Of a DNA stretch of 64,000 bases, positions 1,296-11,656 are shown piece by piece; position 1 is the first letter of the stretch, and each line of letters opens with the position of its first letter. Where the stretch lies: the NCBI RefSeq assembly GCF_001894785.1, contig NZ_BCWW01000004.1:1-64000 (forward strand), in the 5' to 3' direction. Below the pieces are notes generated by a model. The model saw only the letters and a program-made list of their open reading frames with translations, ran no database searches and had not been told where the DNA came from. The stretch comes from Rhodococcoides fascians NBRC 12155 = LMG 3623 (lineage in GTDB: Bacteria > Actinomycetota > Actinomycetes > Mycobacteriales > Mycobacteriaceae). The translations under genes were made by a program, and so were the position numbers.

Positions 1296-1464
1296 CGTTC
1301 TCCCGCCGCGGTGGCGGCCTCTCTAGCAGAGCCGACCGACACGGTCCGCTCGGCGGAGGCGGGTGGACGCCGTTTCATCCACAGAGAGTCCGGCATGCAC
1401 AGGGTGCTGCTCGGCCCCTGGTCGAGCCGGGAAGACACCACGGAGCCTCGTAAGACTTCGAGGC

Positions 1465-2580
1465 ATGTACACACCGACGAACTCCCACGACCCCTTCTCC
1501 GGTCGACACCGCGTACGGATCGGTGACGCGAGCGAACTGTTGGCCGCGATCCCGGCGATGCTCGGCTTCGATCCCCATCGATCGATGGTGCTGATCGCGC
1601 TCGAGGACGGCGGCACCAGCATCGGCCCGACGATGCGGCACGACCTCGTGCTGGCCGGCGAACACACCGATCGACGTGCGGGTAGCGACACTCGCGCCAC
1701 GCCGGACATGCTCGACGTCATCGACTACCTGGCGGGCTACTGCGCATTCGAGAACATCGTCTCGGTGATCGCTGTGTTCGTCGACGACAGACTCGGCCGC
1801 AACGAGCGAACGCACTACACACTCGACGTTCAGGATCTGGTGAACGAGCTCGAGGTCACCCTCCCGACGTTCGGTGTGCGGCTCGAAGCCGCCTTCGCAA
1901 CCTCGGCCATTGCCGATGCCGCGCACTGGTGGTCGCTACAGGGCCCACGGCAGCACGGTCGTATCGCCGATCCGACGGCATCGCCGCTGACGGTGGCCAG
2001 AGTGCTGGGCGGCTATCCGGTGCGAGGATCGAGAGACGAGCTCGCCGAATTCATCGCACCCGGCCCGGTCGAGACGGTGCAGGCAGTCGCCGCCGAGATG
2101 GCAAGGTTTCGGCGCAGCGATGCACTGTCGCTGACCGACCACCTGACAGCGGTGTTGTCCTACCTCGCGCGGTCTCCCTACGACTCCGAGCTCGAGACCA
2201 CCGACTTCGCGCGGGTCGCCGTCGCGATCGGGCATGTGCAGGTCCGGGACGCGGTTCTGGCACTGACTCTCGGTGAGGATGCAGATGTCGTCGAGGAATT
2301 CTGGGCGCACCTCGTCCGTGTGGTTCCGAACCGCGAAAGAGCAATAGCAGCAACACTTCTCGCGTTCAGTGCCTACGTGCGAGGAGACGGACCGATGGCC
2401 CGAATCGCGATCGATGCGGCCCTGAAGGCAGACAGCTCCCACAGTTTGGCGTCGCTGTTGGACCGGTCGCTCGGTGTCGGTGCCAGTCCTGCCCTGGTTC
2501 GCGAAGTCGCCGAGAGTGGGTTCGCCTGTGCGCGAGCCTGTGGCATTCGGCTACCGGGCGACCCGTTCGGTCGGCGCTGA
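1465..2580 (+). CDS. DUF4192 family protein
   Basis: A 371-residue soluble protein of the actinobacterial DUF4192 family, recognised by the opening RIGDASELLAAIPAMLGF and PHRSMVLIAL. The family has no established function. I chose the ATG at 1465 because the frame upstream to 1363 reads as non-coding, Cys- and Arg-rich sequence. The protein is Ala-rich and probably mostly helical in its C-terminal half, which in relatives resembles tandem helical repeats. No signal peptide or membrane segment is seen. It ends 12 bases before the convergent galE stop. Confidence 0.8.
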   Translation: MYTPTNSHDPFSGRHRVRIGDASELLAAIPAMLGFDPHRSMVLIALEDGGTSIGPTMRHDLVLAGEHTDRRAGSDTRATPDMLDVIDYLAGYCAFENIVSVIAVFVDDRLGRNERTHYTLDVQDLVNELEVTLPTFGVRLEAAFATSAIADAAHWWSLQGPRQHGRIADPTASPLTVARVLGGYPVRGSRDELAEFIAPGPVETVQAVAAEMARFRRSDALSLTDHLTAVLSYLARSPYDSELETTDFARVAVAIGHVQVRDAVLALTLGEDADVVEEFWAHLVRVVPNRERAIAATLLAFSAYVRGDGPMARIAIDAALKADSSHSLASLLDRSLGVGASPALVREVAESGFACARACGIRLPGDPFGRR

Positions 2581-2592
2581 TCTGGAGTCTGC

Positions 2593-3573
2593 TCAGCGAG
2601 CCGCGTGAGAACGGTCGCCGAGCTGCTGCAGAAAGTCCCACGCATCGGACACGATGCGATCGAGATCGGTCAACTCCGGCGTCCAGTGCAGTTCCTCGAC
2701 GGCACGGGCGCTCGATGCAATCAGCACGGCCGGATCACCGAGTCTGCGAGGCGCATGTTCGACGGCAATGGGCAGTCCGGTGACGCGCTTGCACGACGAG
2801 ATGACCTCGTCGACGGAGAATCCCGTTCCGCTACCGAGGTTGTAGATGGAGTGCCGACCGGGCTGGGCGGCATCGACGGCGAGGATGTGCGCTTCGGCGA
2901 GATCGGCGACGTGGATGTAATCGCGGACGGCTGTGCCGTCGGGAGTGGGCCAGTCCGTGCCGAACACCGAGATCTTCTCTCGCTGACCGAGGGCGACCTG
3001 TAATACGAGGGGGATGAGATGGGTCTCGACGACGCGGTTCTCACCGAAACCCTTGTATGCGCCGGCCACGTTGAAGTACCTCAGACTGGTAGCGGCGAGA
3101 CCGTAGGCCGCTGCATACGAGGTGATGGCGTGGTCGATCGCGAGTTTGGTCGCACCGTACGGGTTGGTGGGACGGGTGGGGTCGTCCTCGGTGATGGGAG
3201 TCTTCTCGGGCTCACCGTAGGTGGCCGCGGTGGAGGAGAACACCAACTTGGGGGTGCCGGAGGACCGGATCGCGTCCAGAAGAGCCAGGGACGTCACTAC
3301 GTTCCCACTCCAGTACTTGTCCGGCGACACAACCGACTCGCCCACCAACGACTGCGCTGCGAAATGCAGAACTGCATCGAAGTCGCCGCCCGTCAATACT
3401 TCCGCCGCGACGTCTTTGATGTCACCCTCGACGAAAGTGGCCCCGGCGGGAACGGCATCCCGATTACCGGTGGACAGGTTGTCCACGACGACGACCTCAT
3501 GGCCGCGTTCGTCGAGTACCGCCGCGCACACACTGCCGACGTACCCTGCACCACCGGTAACGAGAAGCTTCAC
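2593..3573 (-). CDS. galE: UDP-glucose 4-epimerase GalE
   Basis: A 326-residue short-chain dehydrogenase/reductase that interconverts UDP-glucose and UDP-galactose with bound NAD. In mycolic-acid bacteria this supplies galactose for the arabinogalactan wall. Visible are the NAD-binding TGGAGYVGS at the N terminus, the [10 protein letters not shown] strand, the catalytic YGATK (Tyr-x3-Lys) and the [11 protein letters not shown] segment typical of GalE. Length is normal for the family. It starts with GTG 46 bases after the ideR stop on the same strand, so the two are probably cotranscribed; an ideR/dtxR-galE pair is also seen in corynebacteria. Confidence 0.96.
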
Positions 3574-3619
3574 TGTTCGATCTCCCTCACACGCGGCAGA
3601 GGCCGTCCGTGGGAAGAGA

Positions 3620-4306
3620 TCAGACCTTCTTCACCTGAACGGCATGCGCCATTTCGTCGGATATGTCGACACCACTGTGTCCTGGCACCGTGATCGTCAC
3701 CGACCCGGGCTTGGCTTCGACTGTAACCCGGGCATCGGGAACCACGCCCGCCTCGCGTAGCTGAGCGATGACCTCGGGGTCGGACTGAACGTGCTCGGCC
3801 AAGCGGCGGACGACGACCGCCGTAGGCTCGCCGAGCGGTACGTCGGTGAGACGAATGAGAGCCTCCGGTGCCAGTGTCGTCTGACCCAGACCCAGCTCCG
3901 CCAGACCAGGGATCGGATTACCGTAGGGCGAGGTCGTCGGGTTGTTCAGCACGGTGACCAACCGGCGCTCGACCTCCTCGCTCATCACGTGTTCCCAACG
4001 GCACGCCTCGGCGTGCACATCTTCCCAGCGCAGTCCGATGATGTCGACGAGCAGACGCTCCGCGAGACGGTGCTTGCGCATGACCGCGACGGCCAAGCTG
4101 CGGCCCTTCTCGGTCAGCTCCAGATGCCGGTCGCCGGCGACGGACAGAAGACCGTCGCGCTCCATTCGGGCGACGGTCTGACTGACGGTGGGACCACTCT
4201 GCTCCAGCCGCTCGGCGATCCGCGCGCGGAGCGGGATGACGCCTTCTTCTTCCAAATCGTAGATCGTCCGGAGGTACATCTCCGTGGTGTCGACCAGATC
4301 CTTCAC
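3620..4306 (-). CDS. ideR: Iron-dependent repressor IdeR (DtxR family)
   Basis: A 228-residue Fe2+-dependent repressor of siderophore and iron-uptake genes that also activates iron storage. The N-terminal winged helix-turn-helix begins [20 protein letters not shown]; the metal-binding and dimerisation region carries [16 protein letters not shown], which holds the His/Glu/Cys ligands; and an SH3-like domain closes the protein. All three domains of the full-length family are present. A TTG at 4312 also opens the frame, but the AAGGGG at 4313-4318 abuts it, whereas it lies 6 bases from the GTG at 4306; the latter also matches the known IdeR N terminus. Confidence 0.96.
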
Positions 4307-4478
4307 ACTCAACCCCTTCGTCGGGTTCGATCCTACCGTCAGCGGCTCTGAATCGGCGCTGCACCCGATGGCGGCGGGCGCGGCGCATCACAACCCCGGA
4401 AGCCGCTCGCCGTGGCGCGTCACAACCGGGTACCGAAGACAACACCGGAACCCGGCAACACCATCCCGCGCGGCAACG

Positions 4479-4484
4479 TAGTTT
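4479..4484 (+). promoter_or_regulatory. -10 element for leaderless acuC
   Basis: TAGTTT (TAnnnT) followed by 7 bases and then the acuC ATG. This places the expected transcription start on the A of the start codon. No Shine-Dalgarno sequence is visible and the -35 region is weak. Confidence 0.5.
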
Positions 4485-4491
4485 TGTCCGT

Positions 4492-5760
4492 ATGTCTGAT
4501 CAGGCGACACGCGCCGCCGTATCCATTCCGAACCGTCCCGAGGACATCGTCGTGTGGAGCGCGGACTATCTCGGTTACCGGTGGAGCGACGACCATCCGA
4601 TGAACCCGACGCGGCTCGATCTGACGATGGCCCTCGCCACCGATCTCGGTGTGTTGGCGGGCGTGGAGCTCGTCGAACCGTCGGCGGCACCGGACTCGGA
4701 GCTGCTGCGCTTTCATACCAGCGCGTACATCGAGGCCGTCAAGCGCGCGCCGTCGCAGGGTCCGGCCCTGCGAGACCCCGACGACGTCGTCCACGGTCTC
4801 GGTTCCGACGACAACCCGGTGTTCGAGCACATGCACGAAGCCAGCGCGATGCTGACCGGCGGCTCCTTGGCGGCCGCGCGGGAGATCGCGTCGGGGCGGG
4901 CCAGGAGAGCCGTGAGTATCGGCGGTGGAATGCACCACGCGATGGCCGATTGGGCCTCGGGCTTCTGCGTCTACAACGACGCCGCCATCGCGATTTCGTG
5001 GTTGCTGGACAACGGGTTCGATCGCATCGCCTACATCGACGTCGACGCACACCACGGCGACGGCGTCCAAGCAGCGTTTCTCGGTGATCCTCGGGTTCTG
5101 ACGGTTTCGCTGCACCAGCACCCGGCAACACTGTGGCCGAACACCGGATGGTCGACGGAGGTAGGAACCGAACGCGGCGAGGGTTCCTCGATCAACGTCC
5201 CGCTGCTGCCCGGTACCGCGGATCGGCTCTGGCTCCGTGCATTTCATGCGATCGTTCCGGGCGCGATCGGAGCGTTCCGGCCGCAGATCATCGTCAGTCA
5301 ATGCGGCGTCGACAGTCACCGCGAGGATCCGCTTGCAGATCTCGCGCTCACCGTCGACGGGCAGAATGCGGCCTTCCTGGCGATGCGCGACCTTGCGGAC
5401 CGATACTCGGAGGGTCGGTGGTTGGCCGTCGGGGGAGGCGGGTACGGCCTCGTTCGGGTGGTTCCACGGGCCTGGACTCATCTGATCGCCGCTGCCCTCG
5501 GCCGCGACATCGATCCGATGGCACCCCTACCCGACACCTGGCGCGAGCGAGTGAGAACCATGGCACCGAGCGTGGATCTGCCCCAGACCATGGGCGACGG
5601 TGGGGATGTCGACTATCCCGCCTGGGACGGTCCCGGCGGATCGTTGGCCGGAACGGACGGCACCGACCGGGCACTCGAACGCGTCGACTCGGCCATCATC
5701 GCCACTCGTCGAGCAGTGTTTCCGCTGCTCGGACTCGATCCGGAGGACCCGCGTGACTGA
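4492..5760 (+). CDS. acuC: AcuC-type lysine deacetylase (HDAC fold)
   Basis: A 422-residue zinc-dependent deacetylase of the class I histone deacetylase fold, as in Bacillus AcuC, which removes acetyl groups from lysines, classically to reactivate acetyl-CoA synthetase. Active-site features are visible: GGGMHHAMAD with the His pair, FCVYNDAAIAI, and DVDAHHGDGV with Asp and His ligands, followed by VSQCGVDSHREDPL and the GGGGYG turn. It overlaps the following acyltransferase gene by 8 bases, so the two are translationally coupled. The -10 spacing suggests a leaderless mRNA. Acetoin use is only one possible role; protein deacylation fits the neighbour better. Confidence 0.92.
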   Translation: MSDQATRAAVSIPNRPEDIVVWSADYLGYRWSDDHPMNPTRLDLTMALATDLGVLAGVELVEPSAAPDSELLRFHTSAYIEAVKRAPSQGPALRDPDDVVHGLGSDDNPVFEHMHEASAMLTGGSLAAAREIASGRARRAVSIGGGMHHAMADWASGFCVYNDAAIAISWLLDNGFDRIAYIDVDAHHGDGVQAAFLGDPRVLTVSLHQHPATLWPNTGWSTEVGTERGEGSSINVPLLPGTADRLWLRAFHAIVPGAIGAFRPQIIVSQCGVDSHREDPLADLALTVDGQNAAFLAMRDLADRYSEGRWLAVGGGGYGLVRVVPRAWTHLIAAALGRDIDPMAPLPDTWRERVRTMAPSVDLPQTMGDGGDVDYPAWDGPGGSLAGTDGTDRALERVDSAIIATRRAVFPLLGLDPEDPRD

Positions 5761-8482
5761 TTCCACCGGTACCGACCCGGCCGCCGAACAGGCCGCCGCG
5801 ACAGACGAGAAGAGCAGCAAGGAACTGGCGCGAGAGCGCGCGGAAACAGAGTTTCCGCGGCACTGGGTCGCCGACGTTCTCACGTCGGACGGCGGCGTCG
5901 TGCACCTGCGGCCCATCGTGCCCTCGGACTCCGAGGCCATCGTGGCTTTTCACGGACGACTGTCGGAGCGCACCAGATACCTTCGGTACTTCGGCCCCTA
6001 TCCGACGATGCCGCAGCGGGACGTTCTGAACTTCACCACTGTCGACCATCACGACCGCGTGGCCTTCGTTGCAGTACTGGGCGACGACATCATCGCGGTC
6101 GGCCGTTACGAGCGGCTACCCGAGGGCGACGGCAACTCGGCCGAGGTTGCATTCGTCGTCGCCGACGCCCACCAGGGCCGCGGACTCGGACCCATCCTGC
6201 TCGAGCACCTTGCGGGAGCGGCCGCCGAGAACGGCGTCAACATGTTCGTCGCCGAGGTACTTGCCGAAAACCGCAACATGGTCACCGTGTTCCGGGAGGC
6301 CGGATATCAGGTCAGCCGTTCCTTCGAGGGCGGCGTCCTACGGCTGGAATTCGCGATCGATCCGAGCGAGGCATTGCTGTCGGTGCGGAACTCTCGCGAG
6401 CGCGCAGCCGAGGCCCGTAGCGTTCGCAACGTACTCAGCCCTCGATCGGTCGCCGTGATCGGCGCATCGACCGACAGCTCCAAGGTGGGCAACGCGGTGC
6501 TGGCGAACCTGCTCGCCGGTAACTTCACGGGCCCGGTGTACCCCGTCAACGCCGACCACCGCTCGGTGCGCGGTGTGCGCGCGTACGCCACGGTGCACGA
6601 CATCCCGGACCCGGTCGACCTTGCTATCGCGGCGGTTCCGGCCGATGCCATCGACGCGGTGCTCGACGACTGCCTGGACAAAGGTGTCAAAGCGCTGCTC
6701 GTGGTGTCGGGTGGATTCGGCGAGACCGGGCCTGCGGGGCAGGAGAGCGAGCGCAGGCTGGTGCTCGCCGCCCGTGCCCACGGGATGCGATTGATCGGGC
6801 CCAACGCGCTCGGCGTCGCGAACACCGACCCTGAGTTCGGGTTGAACGCCACATTGGCGCCGCATCTGCCGACCCCGGGCAACGTCGGCTTCTTCTGCCA
6901 GTCCGGCGCGCTCGGCATCGCAATTCTCGACGAGGCAGCCAATCGCCGACTGGGTCTGTCGACGTTCGTCTCTGCCGGCAACCGAGCGGACGTCTCGGGC
7001 AACGACCTGTTGCAGTACTGGGACTCCGACCCGGCGACCGAGGTGATCCTGCTGTACCTGGAGAGCTTCGGAAATCCCCGCAAATTCACCCGAATCGCTC
7101 GACGGGTCGCGCGCAGCAAGCCGATCATCGCGGTCAAGAGCGGCCGCGGAGCCGTACCACCCGCACACGCCATCGGTGCCGACATCGACGATTCCATCGT
7201 CCGAGCGTTGTTCGCCCAAGCCGGAGTGATCCAGGTCGACACCATCTCTGAACTGTTCGACTGTGCAGTACTGTTCGGCAACCAACCCTTGCCGGCCGGC
7301 CCACGCGTGGCCGTCGTGGGCAACTCCACGGCCCTGGGAGTCCTGGCCGTCGACGCCGCTCGCGCCAAAGGCTTGCATGCCGATATCCCGACCGACGTCG
7401 GACCGCAGGCCGGTCCCGAGGATTTTGCCGCGGCCGTCTCGTCGGCACTGGCCGCCTCCGACATCGATGCAGTGATCGTCGTGTTCGTGCCCCCGGTCGC
7501 GGTCGAGGTAGAACCGTTCGCGACTGCGCTGGGCAATGCGGTCCGGGGATCCGACAAGCCGGTGCTGTCGACATTCCTTGCCACCGAAGGTATCCCGGAT
7601 GTGCTGGCTGTACGCGGGCCCGGCGGGCACCCGGTTCGGGGCTCGGTTCCGTCGTACTCGAGCCCCGAACGAGCCGTGGCGGCACTCGCTGCCGCGTGGC
7701 GGTATTCGTCGTGGCGCTCACGGCCGGTGTCGAATCTGGTTCGGCCCAAGAGCATCGACGGCGATCGCGCCAAGCAGCTGGTCCGGGATTGGCGTTCGGC
7801 AGGTGGCCAAGGGCGCTGGCTGTCGGATTTCGAGACTGCCGAGCTGTTGGCCTGTTACGGCCTCGATGTCGTGGCGTTCCGCGCCGTCACCGACGAGAAC
7901 GAGGCCGTCGCGGCGGCCGACGAACTGGGGTACCCGGTTGCCGTGAAGGCGACAGGGAAGCGGTGGCGGCACCGGCCCGATCTGGGCGGTGTTCGCTTGG
8001 ACGTCGCCGACGCCTCGGCAGTCCGTGTGGCATACCGCAACCTGGCGGCCGAGTCCGGAGAGCCGCTACTGCACGTCCAGCGCATGGCAGTCAAGGGAAT
8101 CGGCTGCGTGGTGCGGGTTCAGGACGACCCGTCGTTCGGATCGCTCATCTCGTTCGGTCTGGCCGGAGTGATCTCGGATCTGTTGGGCGACCGTGCCTAC
8201 CGTGTGCTGCCGTTGACCGAGGACGAAGCGGCACAGTTGATCGACGCGCCGAAGGCTGCCCCGCTGCTGTCGGGCTACCGAAACGCCGTGCCGGTCAACA
8301 AGAGTGCGCTGATCGACCTCGTCCAGCGCATATCTGCGCTGGCCGAGGACATTCCCGACATCCGTGAGATTTCTTGCGAACCGGTGCTGGCATCCGCCGA
8401 CGGCGCATACATCACCGATGCGCGAGTACGAATCGGGCCCGAACCGACGAAGGCAGACCTGGGTCCTCGACGATTGCGTTGA
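5753..8482 (+). CDS. pat: GNAT protein acyltransferase fused to an acyl-CoA synthetase-like (Acd) module
   Basis: A 909-residue fusion. A GNAT domain comes first (about 40-185, with VVADAHQGRGLGPILLEHL as the acetyl-CoA loop). Then come a CoA-binding Rossmann domain (about 215-310, SVAVIGAST), two succinyl-CoA-ligase-like domains and a C-terminal ATP-grasp domain (about 680-900). This GNAT-first order matches the Streptomyces lividans PatA type, which acylates and inactivates acyl-CoA synthetases. I see AHAIG where active ADP-forming synthetases have SHTG, so the ligase half may only sense ligands. I chose the GTG at 5753 because it overlaps the acuC stop and has GGAGGA just upstream. Modifier and acuC eraser form one unit. 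Confidence 0.88.
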   Translation: MTDSTGTDPAAEQAAATDEKSSKELARERAETEFPRHWVADVLTSDGGVVHLRPIVPSDSEAIVAFHGRLSERTRYLRYFGPYPTMPQRDVLNFTTVDHHDRVAFVAVLGDDIIAVGRYERLPEGDGNSAEVAFVVADAHQGRGLGPILLEHLAGAAAENGVNMFVAEVLAENRNMVTVFREAGYQVSRSFEGGVLRLEFAIDPSEALLSVRNSRERAAEARSVRNVLSPRSVAVIGASTDSSKVGNAVLANLLAGNFTGPVYPVNADHRSVRGVRAYATVHDIPDPVDLAIAAVPADAIDAVLDDCLDKGVKALLVVSGGFGETGPAGQESERRLVLAARAHGMRLIGPNALGVANTDPEFGLNATLAPHLPTPGNVGFFCQSGALGIAILDEAANRRLGLSTFVSAGNRADVSGNDLLQYWDSDPATEVILLYLESFGNPRKFTRIARRVARSKPIIAVKSGRGAVPPAHAIGADIDDSIVRALFAQAGVIQVDTISELFDCAVLFGNQPLPAGPRVAVVGNSTALGVLAVDAARAKGLHADIPTDVGPQAGPEDFAAAVSSALAASDIDAVIVVFVPPVAVEVEPFATALGNAVRGSDKPVLSTFLATEGIPDVLAVRGPGGHPVRGSVPSYSSPERAVAALAAAWRYSSWRSRPVSNLVRPKSIDGDRAKQLVRDWRSAGGQGRWLSDFETAELLACYGLDVVAFRAVTDENEAVAAADELGYPVAVKATGKRWRHRPDLGGVRLDVADASAVRVAYRNLAAESGEPLLHVQRMAVKGIGCVVRVQDDPSFGSLISFGLAGVISDLLGDRAYRVLPLTEDEAAQLIDAPKAAPLLSGYRNAVPVNKSALIDLVQRISALAEDIPDIREISCEPVLASADGAYITDARVRIGPEPTKADLGPRRLR

Positions 8483-8518
8483 CGAGGACTGCGTCGCCGA
8501 AAACGAGAGAAGCGGCGA

Positions 8519-8556
8519 CCGAGCCGACGTCCCGAGGGGAAAGAACGTCGGTTCGG
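8519..8556. terminator. Hairpin between convergent pat and sigB
   Basis: Arms at 8519-8530 and 8545-8556 pair over 12 bases with one G-T wobble, around a 14-base purine-rich loop. It lies in the convergent gap between the pat and sigB stops and could terminate both transcripts. Confidence 0.6.
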
Positions 8557-8619
8557 CCACCGCGTCGGATGGCGCGAACGGGAGTGGTCACCGTCGCTCC
8601 ACCGGTCGGAGAACCGGAA

Positions 8620-9591
8620 TCAGCTGGCGTACGAACGCAACTTCTCGGCGCGGTCACCCTGGCGAAGCTTGACCATCACCTCGCGCTCGATCTGACGTAC
8701 GCGCTCGCGAGACAGTCCGAAGAGCTTGCCGATCTGATCGAGGGTGCGCGGCTGGCCGTCGTCCAAGCCGTAGCGCAGACGAATGACCTGCTGCTCACGT
8801 TCGTCGAGGGTACCGAGCACGACGCGAACATCGCTGTGCAGCAGCCCGGCGATGACGGCGTTCTCGGCGGACGTGGCTTCCGAGTCCTCGATGAAGTCAC
8901 CCAGCGGCGCTTCCTCGTCGCTACCCACCGGCATGTCGAGGCTGACCGGATCCCGGCTGTGGTCGAGCAGATCCGCAATCTTCTCGACTGCGATGCCCGA
9001 TTCACTCGACAACTCTTCGTCGGTTGCCTCGCGTCCGAGCTGCTGATGCAGCTCCCGCTTGATCCGGGCGAGTTTGTTGACCTGCTCGACGAGGTGGACA
9101 GGGAGCCGAATCGTTCGGCTCTGATCTGCCATGCCGCGAGTGATGGCCTGACGGATCCACCACGTTGCGTAGGTCGAGAACTTGAAGCCCTTCGCGTAGT
9201 CGAACTTTTCCATGGCGCGAATCAGGCCCAGGTTGCCCTCCTGGATCAGGTCGAGCAACGGCATTCCGCGACCTGTGTAGCGCTTGGCGAGCGAGACGAC
9301 CAACCGGAGGTTTGCTTCGAGCAGATGGCTGCGCGCCGCGCTTCCGTCCCGCACGATGATGGCCAGGTTGCGCTTCTTGACTGCGCTCAACCGTTTCGTG
9401 TTCTCGAGAACCTGCTTGGCGTACAGACCTGCCTCGATCCTCTTGGCCAGGTCGACCTCTTCTTCAGCCGTCAGCAACGCGGTGCGGCCGATGCCGTTGA
9501 GGTACACGCGAACGAGATCGGCTGCTGGGCTCTGGGCGTCCAGATCGGCATCGGTGGGCCGCGGACGAATCGTGGTGCTGGGGCTGGTCAT
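8620..9591 (-). CDS. sigB: RNA polymerase sigma factor SigB (group 2)
   Basis: A 323-residue primary-like, non-essential sigma factor for stress and stationary phase. Region 1.2 starts [12 protein letters not shown]; region 2 has [17 protein letters not shown] and the -10-binding [12 protein letters not shown]; region 3 and the region 4 helix-turn-helix ([14 protein letters not shown]) follow. Unlike SigA it lacks the Lys/Ala-rich N-terminal extension. The ATG at 9591 is set by an AGGAGG 7 bases upstream. An ECF-type promoter lies just upstream. In mycobacteria and corynebacteria sigB adjoins ideR/dtxR; here acuC-pat separates them. Confidence 0.96.
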
Positions 9592-9626
9592 GACTTGCCT
9601 CCTGGTCGGTGGTGTCTCACAGGTTC

Positions 9627-9654
9627 AACGCTCGGGACACTCCGATAAGTTCCC
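9627..9654 (-). promoter_or_regulatory. SigE/SigH-type promoter of sigB
   Basis: On the minus strand GGGAAC (9654-9649) is followed by CGTT (9630-9627); GGAAC and GTT are 19 bases apart. This matches the GGAAC-N(16-20)-GTT pattern of actinobacterial SigE and SigH ECF promoters. The transcript would start near 9620, about 30 bases before the sigB ATG. Confidence 0.75.
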
Positions 9655-9760
9655 ACGCCGATCCTTGTGATACCCGCCTGACCAGGGAATACGGCGGGTC
9701 CGTCCTGAGAAGTTGCTGAGAACGTTCGCAGCGGGAACGGCAGCGCAGCCCCAGGCCCGT

Positions 9761-11254
9761 TCAGCGAGCCGGCAACACGAGTCCGTGCCGCACCAGACCC
9801 TGCATCAGCGTCACCGCATGCCCCGCCAGTTCGTCGGCATCCTCACCGTGCGCGGCGGCGAGCAGCTCGACCAGTTCGCCCACCGCGAGCCCATCCGGAC
9901 GCAGGCCCGCCAGAAGCGCGGCACCGAGCTCGTCGACGTCGTGCTGCCACTGTGGTCCGTTTCCCCGGTGGACACGGATCGCCACCGGAGCCCAGCCCTC
10001 GTCGCCGGGAAGAAACACCCGTTCGAGCGCGGTGTTGGGGTCGAGAGTCAGTACCGAGTCGAGAATGTCGTTGTCACGGAGCCACTCGAGCCGAGAGAAA
10101 TACTCGAGCGACTCGTTCCCGAGCGGGTCGGAGAACCCGTGCGTCAACTCCTCGGCGAGCAGATCCGTCGGAGAGTCCGTCTTGCGTAGATAGACGAACC
10201 CGAAACCGACGCCCTCGACACCCGCGGCGGCGAAATGATCGAGCCAGGACTGGGCCACCGCGGCCGCATCGGGGTCGCGCGGGTCCAGACCGCCGTCGCG
10301 CATCCAGGTGCCCACATACAGAGCGGGGTCTGCCACGTCACGCTCGACCACCCACGCGTCGACGCCGTGGGCGGGAAGCCAGGACGCCACTCTCGTACGC
10401 CAGTCCTCGCCCTCGAGGTGCACCCACGACGCGAGGATGGCAGCAGTCCCACCGAGGGTGAGGTGCCCGGGTGCCTGGGCGATCATCAACGCGCTCGCGC
10501 CGTCGAGGTCGAGGCCGGAATCTCGGTACGAGTGCAGTACTTCGGCGCGTCCCACGACGAACGGGGGATTGGCGACGATCCTATCGAACGTACGTCCGGC
10601 CACCGGCTCGAACCACGAACCGTGCAGCAATTCGACGTCGAGACCGTTGAGGGCCGTCGTCGCTGCCGCCAGATCCATCGAACGCGGGCTGATGTCGGTC
10701 GCGGTCACCGTCGTTGCGTAGTCGCACGCGTGGACGGCTTGGACGCCGCATCCGGTCCCGACGTCGAGGACGGTGTCCACTGGCGAGGTCGGTGTACCGC
10801 GCAACAACGACAGCGACGCCTGGCCGACGCCGAGCACATGATCGGTGGCCGTGTCGGCGACGCGCATGCTGCCGTCGGGATCGGAGACGATCCACCGGGT
10901 TCCGTGCCCGGCGTCGAGGGGCCGGATGTCGAGCAGGGTGCGCACCGTGGATCCGGTACGAGTGAGAATGCCGGCCGAGATGGCTTCGGGGACGGTCAGC
11001 GGTGCGAGAGCGGCCGCGACCTCGTCCTCGGGGCAGTCGTCGACCAGCAGGAACAATCGCACCAGGACACCCAGATCTCCGCCGCCGAGGCTCGCATTGC
11101 GGACCGGTACCGGTTCGCTGCGTCCCAGTGCGGCGTGGGCGTCGGAGCCCAGCAACCTCAGGACGCCGTCGGCGTCGTAACCCGCGCGATCGAAGGCTTC
11201 ACGGAGGGCAGCGGCGGCAGCGACCAGTGGGGAGAGAGAAATCTGTGCGTTCAC
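9761..11254 (-). CDS. Class I SAM-dependent methyltransferase (small-domain type)
   Basis: A 497-residue soluble protein with a central methyltransferase domain: SAM-binding VLDVGTGCGVQAVHA at about 165-180, an acidic TATDIS after the second strand, and the VANPPFVVG motif, the NPP(F/Y) signature of enzymes that methylate amino groups in bases or glutamine side chains. An N-terminal domain of about 130 residues and a C-terminal domain of about 170 residues have no close function that I can name; such flanks occur in actinobacterial relatives annotated DUF7059. The target could be rRNA, DNA or protein. It lies upstream of sigB on the same strand with a 169-base gap. Confidence 0.8.
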   Translation of the reverse strand: MNAQISLSPLVAAAAALREAFDRAGYDADGVLRLLGSDAHAALGRSEPVPVRNASLGGGDLGVLVRLFLLVDDCPEDEVAAALAPLTVPEAISAGILTRTGSTVRTLLDIRPLDAGHGTRWIVSDPDGSMRVADTATDHVLGVGQASLSLLRGTPTSPVDTVLDVGTGCGVQAVHACDYATTVTATDISPRSMDLAAATTALNGLDVELLHGSWFEPVAGRTFDRIVANPPFVVGRAEVLHSYRDSGLDLDGASALMIAQAPGHLTLGGTAAILASWVHLEGEDWRTRVASWLPAHGVDAWVVERDVADPALYVGTWMRDGGLDPRDPDAAAVAQSWLDHFAAAGVEGVGFGFVYLRKTDSPTDLLAEELTHGFSDPLGNESLEYFSRLEWLRDNDILDSVLTLDPNTALERVFLPGDEGWAPVAIRVHRGNGPQWQHDVDELGAALLAGLRPDGLAVGELVELLAAAHGEDADELAGHAVTLMQGLVRHGLVLPAR

Positions 11255-11287
11255 CGAGCAAGTGTCGCACCGCCTGTCGGCTTCCTG

Positions 11288-11656
11288 TCAGTCCTCGCCG
11301 GCTTCGATCACGCGGTGATTGCTCGATTCGATGGCCGGACTGTCGATGGTCCGGTAGTCGTACCGGCTCATTTCGTCCTTGGTACGCGGCGGCCGATCGT
11401 TCGCGATCAACACCGCCATCCATGGGAGCGGAATGGACAGACCGACGATCGCCATGGATATCCATGGGTTCATCCACATTCCGTATGCCAGTGCAGCGAG
11501 CACCAAGGCCGGTATGCGGAAGGACATGATGAACATGTACTTGCGGACACGCGCTTTGTGCTGCTCTTCCACCGACTGTTGCGCCTCGGTGATCAGGACG
11601 GGCCCATCCGGCGAGTCGCTGTACGCGCTTCCGTCGAACCCTGGGGTTCTCGTCAT
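11288..11656 (-). CDS. DUF3099 membrane protein
   Basis: A 122-residue protein with two closely spaced transmembrane helices (about 42-60 and 66-84), a polar N terminus opening with PVLITEAQQS, and a charged cytoplasmic-looking tail containing MSRYDYRTID. This is the DUF3099 family (Rv2709 type), whose function is unknown and which is conserved next to sigB in mycobacteria. It lies 33 bases upstream of the methyltransferase on the same strand, so the two may be cotranscribed. Confidence 0.82.
   Translation of the reverse strand: MTRTPGFDGSAYSDSPDGPVLITEAQQSVEEQHKARVRKYMFIMSFRIPALVLAALAYGMWMNPWISMAIVGLSIPLPWMAVLIANDRPPRTKDEMSRYDYRTIDSPAIESSNHRVIEAGED

Follow-up and report, generated by a model that had tools for sequence, protein, structure and literature searches.

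An overlapping acuC-pat gene pair between ideR and sigB in Rhodococcoides fascians predicts a coupled eraser and writer of lysine acylation

Here we show that acuC and pat, two genes lying between ideR and sigB in a 64,000-nucleotide stretch of the Rhodococcoides fascians NBRC 12155 genome (contig NZ_BCWW01000004.1, positions 1 to 64,000; this whole stretch is called the window below), overlap by eight bases, that the overlap is conserved among relatives and shows a codon bias, and that the two products have the expected domains, with the active-site residues of AcuC intact. We read the pair as a two-gene operon that makes lysine acylation reversible, in which a deacylase (AcuC, the eraser) and an acetyltransferase (Pat, the writer) would be translated in a coupled manner and would probably act on AMP-forming acyl-CoA synthetases, a class that includes acetate-CoA ligase (Acs); the probability of this reading is, in our estimate, about 0.8. 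As judged from the genomes surveyed, the pair is not new to this genome but an old and common feature of the order. It represents a concrete, widely conserved writer/eraser module for testing, with a fixed ratio of the two enzymes as its prediction.

Results

Conservation of the acuC-pat overlap

Junctions were compared in 38 loci of the family (the window and 37 others), with 17 loci outside the family as comparison; the counts omit three loci of genus g57 in which pat precedes acuC (L039, L040 and L041) and two loci without a pat match (L101 and L105). Genera and families are denoted here by g and f with a number. The initial annotation had described an 8-base overlap of acuC and pat between ideR and sigB, and this holds at 5753-5760, both flanking genes passing their NCBIfam models (Table 1). 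By the open reading frame, pat starts at GTG 5753 and its stop ends at 8482. The program-made list opens the frame earlier, at GTG 5600; between 5607 and 5899, GTG 5753 is the sole ATG, GTG or TTG in frame, and the start codon that follows it, at 5900, is already inside the GNAT domain.

The same 8-base overlap of a pat GTG with the acuC stop is found in 32 of the 38 family loci, representing 20 of 26 genera. The GTG draws on an arginine codon of acuC which is CGT in 32 of the 38 loci, while CGT makes up 108 of the 1071 arginine codons (10%) elsewhere in the same acuC genes and 19 of 169 near gene ends. Because this synonymous choice recurs across genera, we take it to reflect selection on the pat start. 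Of the 32 GTG loci, 23 have a GGAGG with a 6-base spacer ahead of the start (23/38 overall), and GGAGG is present in one of the six non-GTG loci; the association of GGAGG with GTG has a Fisher p of 0.018, with rows that are not independent. From these patterns in the DNA, the coupling of acuC and pat looks selected, by way of the start codon of pat, and the earlier proposal that eraser and writer are made together gains from both the frequency of the overlap and its unusual CGT codon.

Several points weigh against this. Six of the 38 family loci lack the GTG overlap; outside the family it occurs in 2 of 17 loci, so that the order as a whole does not share coupling of this form; and the 38 loci share ancestry, with the result that the codon and GGAGG probabilities overstate the surprise. 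The overlap might also simply follow from a conserved C-terminus of AcuC (DPRD) in genomes that are dense and GC-rich, without any selection for coupling, and indeed DPRD ends AcuC in most loci of other families too, mostly without the GTG overlap, which indicates that the protein fixes part of the sequence. What the protein does not dictate is CGT for that arginine, which was used in 2 of the 17 outside loci, against its prevalence within the family and its 10% share elsewhere in the same genes. Kinship of the rows lessens this codon argument but hardly cancels it, and a mere by-product appears improbable to us.

Domains and active sites of AcuC and Pat

The PF00850 match of AcuC spans model positions 1-297 of 298, that is, the whole domain, and H148, H149, D185, H187, D274 and Y318 are invariant in all 12 aligned sequences (the window and 11 loci). 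These residues comprise the metal ligands (D, H, D), the catalytic histidine pair and the tyrosine of a class I deacylase of the histone deacetylase (HDAC) kind, and they sit at a constant offset of 15 from H133, H134, D170, H172, D259 and Y303, the AcuC residues named, apparently for the Geobacillus enzyme, in PMC13039410 (this and the other papers cited by PMC number were accessible in part). By these features AcuC is an AcuC-type deacylase with intact active-site residues, and it is predicted to be active and metal-dependent, the metal being zinc by homology.

According to the accessible part of PMC8556138, specificity for acetylated polyamines is found in some classical deacylases of bacteria, and it is conceivable that AcuC likewise acts on small molecules of that kind while Pat acts on proteins, the two being merely co-expressed. 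We regard this as very improbable, since Bacillus subtilis AcuC is reported to deacylate both acyl-peptides (PMC11532494) and AcsA (PMC13039410), and the closest PDB sequences of the window's AcuC are HDAC6, clr6, HDAC8, HDAC2 and HDLP.

Pfam matches place the GNAT domain of Pat first (Acetyltransf_1, residues 80-185), followed by CoA_binding_2, Succ_CoA_lig and ATP-grasp_5, which bears out the GNAT-first fusion described earlier. Among PDB entries, the GNAT domain is matched best by 4nxy (residues 31-201, E 2.6e-47), which we take to be the GNAT domain of Streptomyces lividans PatA (SlPatA); the solved protein acetyltransferase 9it0 aligns in the reverse order, ligase part first and GNAT last. 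Among 58 aligned Pat sequences the glycines of the Q/RxxGxG loop are retained (G144 in all 58, G146 in 53), and the H472 column, in a poorly aligned stretch, holds histidine in 4 sequences, that of the window included, leucine in 30 and a gap in 13. The catalytic histidine is absent from the ligase-like part of type I and type II enzymes, as stated in the accessible text of PMC8556138. A working acyl-CoA ligase domain in Pat was considered and rejected, given a histidine in the right stretch of just 4 of the 58 sequences. Pat is, by its domain order and matches, a GNAT-first enzyme of the SlPatA kind with predicted acetyltransferase activity; its ligase-like C-terminal part, in which the catalytic histidine is not conserved among relatives, probably senses acetyl-CoA or another metabolite rather than producing acyl-CoA.

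Distribution in the family and the order

The family sample comprised 151 genomes, of which 130 gave an AcuC match in a protein search at E 1e-60. In 125 of these, acuC adjoins ideR and diverges from it, the matched stretches lying 72-359 bases apart (median 185). Both g56 genomes (2/2) carry an intact acuC-pat at another site and have ideR beside sigB, and three g57 genomes carry a distant pair away from ideR in the order pat-acuC, with AcuC 38-40% identical. The 21 family genomes without acuC belong to g2 (nine), g57 (seven), g59 (two), g61 (two) and g67 (one, 66% complete); g57 is perhaps Corynebacterium-like, one of its IdeR sequences being slightly closer to the diphtheria toxin repressor than to IdeR. 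Among the 34 fetched family loci with ideR-acuC-pat, sigB lies less than 1 kb from pat in 33, galE less than 1 kb from ideR in 31 and a methyltransferase gene less than 1 kb from sigB in 29, so that acuC-pat is part of a generally stable gene block. One genome, G136 (g4), has two acuC-pat pairs (L069 and L070), one at ideR-sigB and the other elsewhere.

In the order sample of 150 genomes, to which the Pat search was applied, matches were obtained for acuC in 127, pat in 118 (E 1e-150), ideR in 148 and sigB in 147 (E 1e-90, a threshold that other sigma factors pass too). The gene pat directly follows acuC (same strand, <1.5 kb) in 104 of the 127 acuC-bearing genomes, a frequency which, like the intact pair off-site in g56, supports the reading as an operon. 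Of the 127 genomes, 36 have a divergent ideR less than 1 kb upstream of acuC, and 87 have one when the limit is set at 10 kb. At that limit, 12 of the 15 families with acuC contain one or more linked genomes, and pat follows acuC in 11 of those 12, the exception being f13 (one genome). No linkage within 10 kb was found in f2 (0/18), f9 (0/18) or f6 (0/1). The unlinked f2 set includes complete single-contig genomes, such as G001 with ideR beside sigB, and f2 genome G147 has no ideR match; many f9 assemblies consist of hundreds of contigs, so that missing linkage is there partly missing data, and the ideR place of f9 genome G089 is not among the matches listed.

The arrangement ideR-acuC-pat-sigB is thus repeated in the family and in much of the order, and it is not due to chance. 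The initial annotation had the pair placed between two genes that are neighbours in mycobacteria and corynebacteria; given the distribution in the family and the order, an insertion in this lineage is the less likely course.

Among 80 named loci, whose lengths vary, pat was at the expected place downstream in 53, ideR in 49 and sigB in 32. The pair is present in records of Rhodococcus, Nocardia, Gordonia, Williamsia, Tsukamurella and Dietzia and also of Amycolatopsis, Saccharopolyspora, Micromonospora and Geodermatophilus, and the named record nearest to the window is Rhodococcus sp. AW25M09 (AcuC identity 94%). Records of Streptomyces, Kribbella and Nonomuraea have acuC and show no pat relative in the fetched flank.

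Two records carry doubtful labels. L152 (Kitasatospora arboriphila, NZ_JNYV01000001.1) has galE-ideR-acuC-pat-sigB with spacing and identities nearly those of L046 (g63), differs from other Kitasatospora and Streptomyces loci, and is probably mislabelled or contaminated. L171 (Nocardia sp. NRRL S-836) has an AcuC identity of 59%, where other Nocardia records have 66-69%, and an ideR-acuC gap of 1.7 kb; it resembles the Saccharothrix and Kibdelosporangium records (L165 and L168), and its genus label looks doubtful.

Proposed mechanism and candidate substrates

In the mechanism that we propose, ribosomes ending acuC would restart at the overlapping GTG of pat, aided by the GGAGG inside acuC, and the two opposing enzymes would in this way be made at a fixed ratio. 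The likely substrates are AMP-forming acyl-CoA synthetases: Pat would acylate the lysine of their PxxxxGK motif and switch them off, and AcuC, alongside the cell's two sirtuin-family proteins, would switch them on again. The window's genome has 54 AMP-binding_C matches, and PxxxxGK is present in 28 of the 30 best, several of which lie in frames of thousands of codons and are probably peptide synthetases. The best match, L112 on contig C1, passes the Acs models and carries PKTRSGKIMRR; another, L113, is propionate/acetate-ligase-like and falls under the model cut-offs.

Some observations count against this mechanism. PxxxxGK belongs to the ANL superfamily in general and is no proof of regulation. 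In vitro, SlPatA, which among characterised enzymes is the closest, spares its own Acs and acetylates acetoacetyl-CoA synthetase (PMC4053389, accessible part), so that Acs may not be a substrate here. Sirtuin-family genes are found nearly everywhere in the family (144/151 genomes, including all nine of g2, with two matches in the window's genome), and AcuC therefore need not be the main eraser. Finally, a simple scan of 3500-9800 recognised no sigma-70 promoter.

Absence of the pair and apparent exchange of the writer in genus g2

PDB entry 1fx7 (IdeR) is matched by the IdeR of one g2 genome (E 8e-125), and 4ava and three more Pat entries by the Pat of another (E 4e-125 or better), from which we infer that g2 is a Mycobacterium-like genus. 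In the order sample, none of the 13 g2 genomes gave a match to AcuC (E 1e-60) or to the window's type of Pat (E 1e-150); in each of them ideR and sigB are adjacent, the matched stretches lying 124-248 bases apart. The model for the cyclic AMP (cAMP)-regulated Pat, NF058543, is matched in 13 of the 150 order genomes and 9 of the 151 family genomes, all of them g2. The mycobacterial cAMP-regulated Pat acts on Acs. Genomes with AcuC/Pat and genomes with the cAMP-regulated Pat are thus cleanly split in our samples, which suggests that one genus changed its control of acetylation, through an apparent exchange of the Pat type seen in the window for the cAMP-regulated one. Such a change would matter for the transfer of results between Rhodococcus or Streptomyces and mycobacteria. 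The absence of acuC does not require a cAMP-regulated Pat, since g61, g59 and seven g57 genomes have neither.

In a tree of IdeR plus SigB with 65 rows, the state with the pair between the two genes needs at least seven changes, or six with the family rows alone; the backbone of this tree is open, its branches are long, 13 of the 14 outgroup rows were fetched through acuC, and it gives no direction to the changes. As acuC near ideR is the commoner state in the survey, repeated loss or relocation is likelier than repeated insertion, and, judged by distribution, an ideR-sigB interval without acuC, as in Mycobacterium-like and other genomes, would seem to be the derived state; unlinked acuC is widespread too (f2 and f9). 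A broader scenario, which we advance tentatively and at somewhat less than even odds, would have the writer/eraser ratio fixed by a start within the eraser's last codons at a cost in codon choice, and this module deleted in the mycobacterial stem in exchange for a cAMP-gated writer that works with sirtuins, with the mycobacterial adjacency of ideR and sigB as the scar of that deletion.

Position between ideR and sigB

The conserved position could itself be meaningful, in line with the link between acyl-CoA status, iron and stress responses suggested by the initial annotation, and could tie the pair to iron and stress control, for example through regulation of acuC-pat by IdeR or acylation of IdeR or SigB. 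The close, divergent ideR-acuC arrangement of the family and the nearness of sigB to pat in 33 of 34 loci speak for such a tie, but galE and the methyltransferase gene stay in place almost as often, so that conservation of the block explains the position; the pair runs on the + strand and both ideR and sigB on the - strand, and g56, f2 and f9 have acuC without linkage to ideR. Nor does the ideR-acuC interval of the window contain an IdeR-box-like sequence, the best match to a 19-base pattern, which we take to be the IdeR box, having 11 mismatches. No site with six mismatches or fewer was found on the + strand of the window, though a weak or changed box may escape this pattern, and among 34 relatives the best match in the ideR-acuC interval differs from the pattern at 8 to 11 positions. 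The single site with at most three mismatches in the window's genome (L222, G000:C4:346350-346368; three mismatches) lies outside the window. We consider a functional tie to iron and stress control unlikely, and conserved position as evidence of function was rejected, the control genes galE and methyltransferase being almost equally stable.

Features of the window

The features around the pair are collected in Table 1. With ideR divergent from acuC and sigB convergent to pat, neither should share a transcript with the pair. Terminator matches in 3500-9800 are at chance level only, and neither RNA families at gathering score nor tRNAs were found in the window. The open frame of 488 codons antisense to pat is probably a by-product of GC-rich coding sequence.

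Table 1. Coordinates of acuC-pat and neighbouring features in the window
Feature	Position	Strand	Evidence or remark
ideR/dtxR, iron-dependent repressor	3620..4312	-	NCBIfam NF053665 (actinobacterial DtxR model), 333 bits, cut-off 290
ideR Pfam domains	3620..4312	-	Fe_dep_repress, Fe_dep_repr_C, DtxR SH3
ideR-acuC intergenic region, 179 bases	4313..4491	.	without IdeR-box-like sequence
acuC, predicted class I HDAC-like lysine deacylase, 422 aa	4492..5760	+	PF00850 Hist_deacetyl, E 1.7e-85
GGAGG within acuC coding sequence, putative ribosome-binding site of pat	5742..5746	+	6 bases ahead of GTG 5753
acuC end / pat start overlap, 8 bases, GTGACTGA	5753..5760	+	acuC stop TGA 5758-5760 inside
pat, predicted GNAT-first fused protein acetyltransferase (SlPatA/type II kind), 909 aa	5753..8482	+	Pfam; PDB 4nxy
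Pat GNAT domain, about residues 42-199	5876..6349	+	Pfam, NCBIfam and PDB matches
Open frame antisense to pat, 488 codons	6307..7773	-	
Pat NDP-forming acyl-CoA-synthetase-like region	6443..8434	+	CoA_binding_2, Succ_CoA_lig, ATP-grasp_5
sigB, sigma factor, convergent to pat	8620..9591	-	NF005920 (SigB model), 634 bits, cut-off 464
Methyltransferase	9761..11254	-	DUF7059 and DUF7782

Discussion

In the literature searched, largely without subscription papers, neither the acuC-pat pair nor its ideR-sigB site is described; no Rhodococcus acetylome paper is among the matches listed, and in Rhodococcus and related bacteria lysine acylation appears to have received little study. Comparison is possible with several better-known systems.

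The mycobacterial enzymes MtPat and MsPat are, like the window's Pat, GNAT protein acetyltransferases (PMC6434083 and PMC8556138, accessible parts). They differ in having a cAMP-binding domain ahead of the GNAT domain and no ligase-like part behind it, and they occupy another genome site, confined in both surveys to g2, a genus without acuC.

Saccharopolyspora spinosa, within the same order, has an acuC of this gene family, followed by pat and preceded by ideR (L162). Knock-out and overexpression strains have been made, and overexpression is reported to raise spinosyn yield and acetyl-CoA content and to alter sporulation (PMC8296664); the accessible part of that paper speaks of acuA and mentions no neighbouring pat.

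S. lividans PatA, a type II GNAT, shares with the window's Pat an N-terminal GNAT domain followed by an NDP-forming acyl-CoA-synthetase-like part (PMC4053389 and PMC8556138, accessible parts), and the catalytic histidine is likewise not conserved among relatives of the window's Pat. SlPatA is also reported to carry a collagen-like G-P-S region. The Streptomyces loci themselves differ in the absence of a pat relative from the fetched acuC flanks, several of these loci ending near acuC on one side.

A further parallel is the acuABC operon of Bacillus subtilis, which unites a GNAT writer and an AcuC eraser in a single operon, as the overlap of same-strand genes predicts for acuC-pat, and in which a stop/start overlap (ATGA) of acuB and acuC and their coupling have been reported (accessible part of PMC13039410); the functional analogy drawn in the initial annotation is supported as a resemblance in kind. 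Neither an acuB-like gene nor acsA is among the eight genes examined around the pair (1363-11656), Acs being encoded on contig C1. In contrast to acuABC, the window has the eraser first and the writer second, its writer is a large fused Pat rather than the small AcuA, and its overlap joins eraser and writer directly. The acuC-pat pair is, in sum, a variation on the acuABC theme with the eraser first and a writer of the SlPatA type, and one that is real, conserved and functionally coherent.

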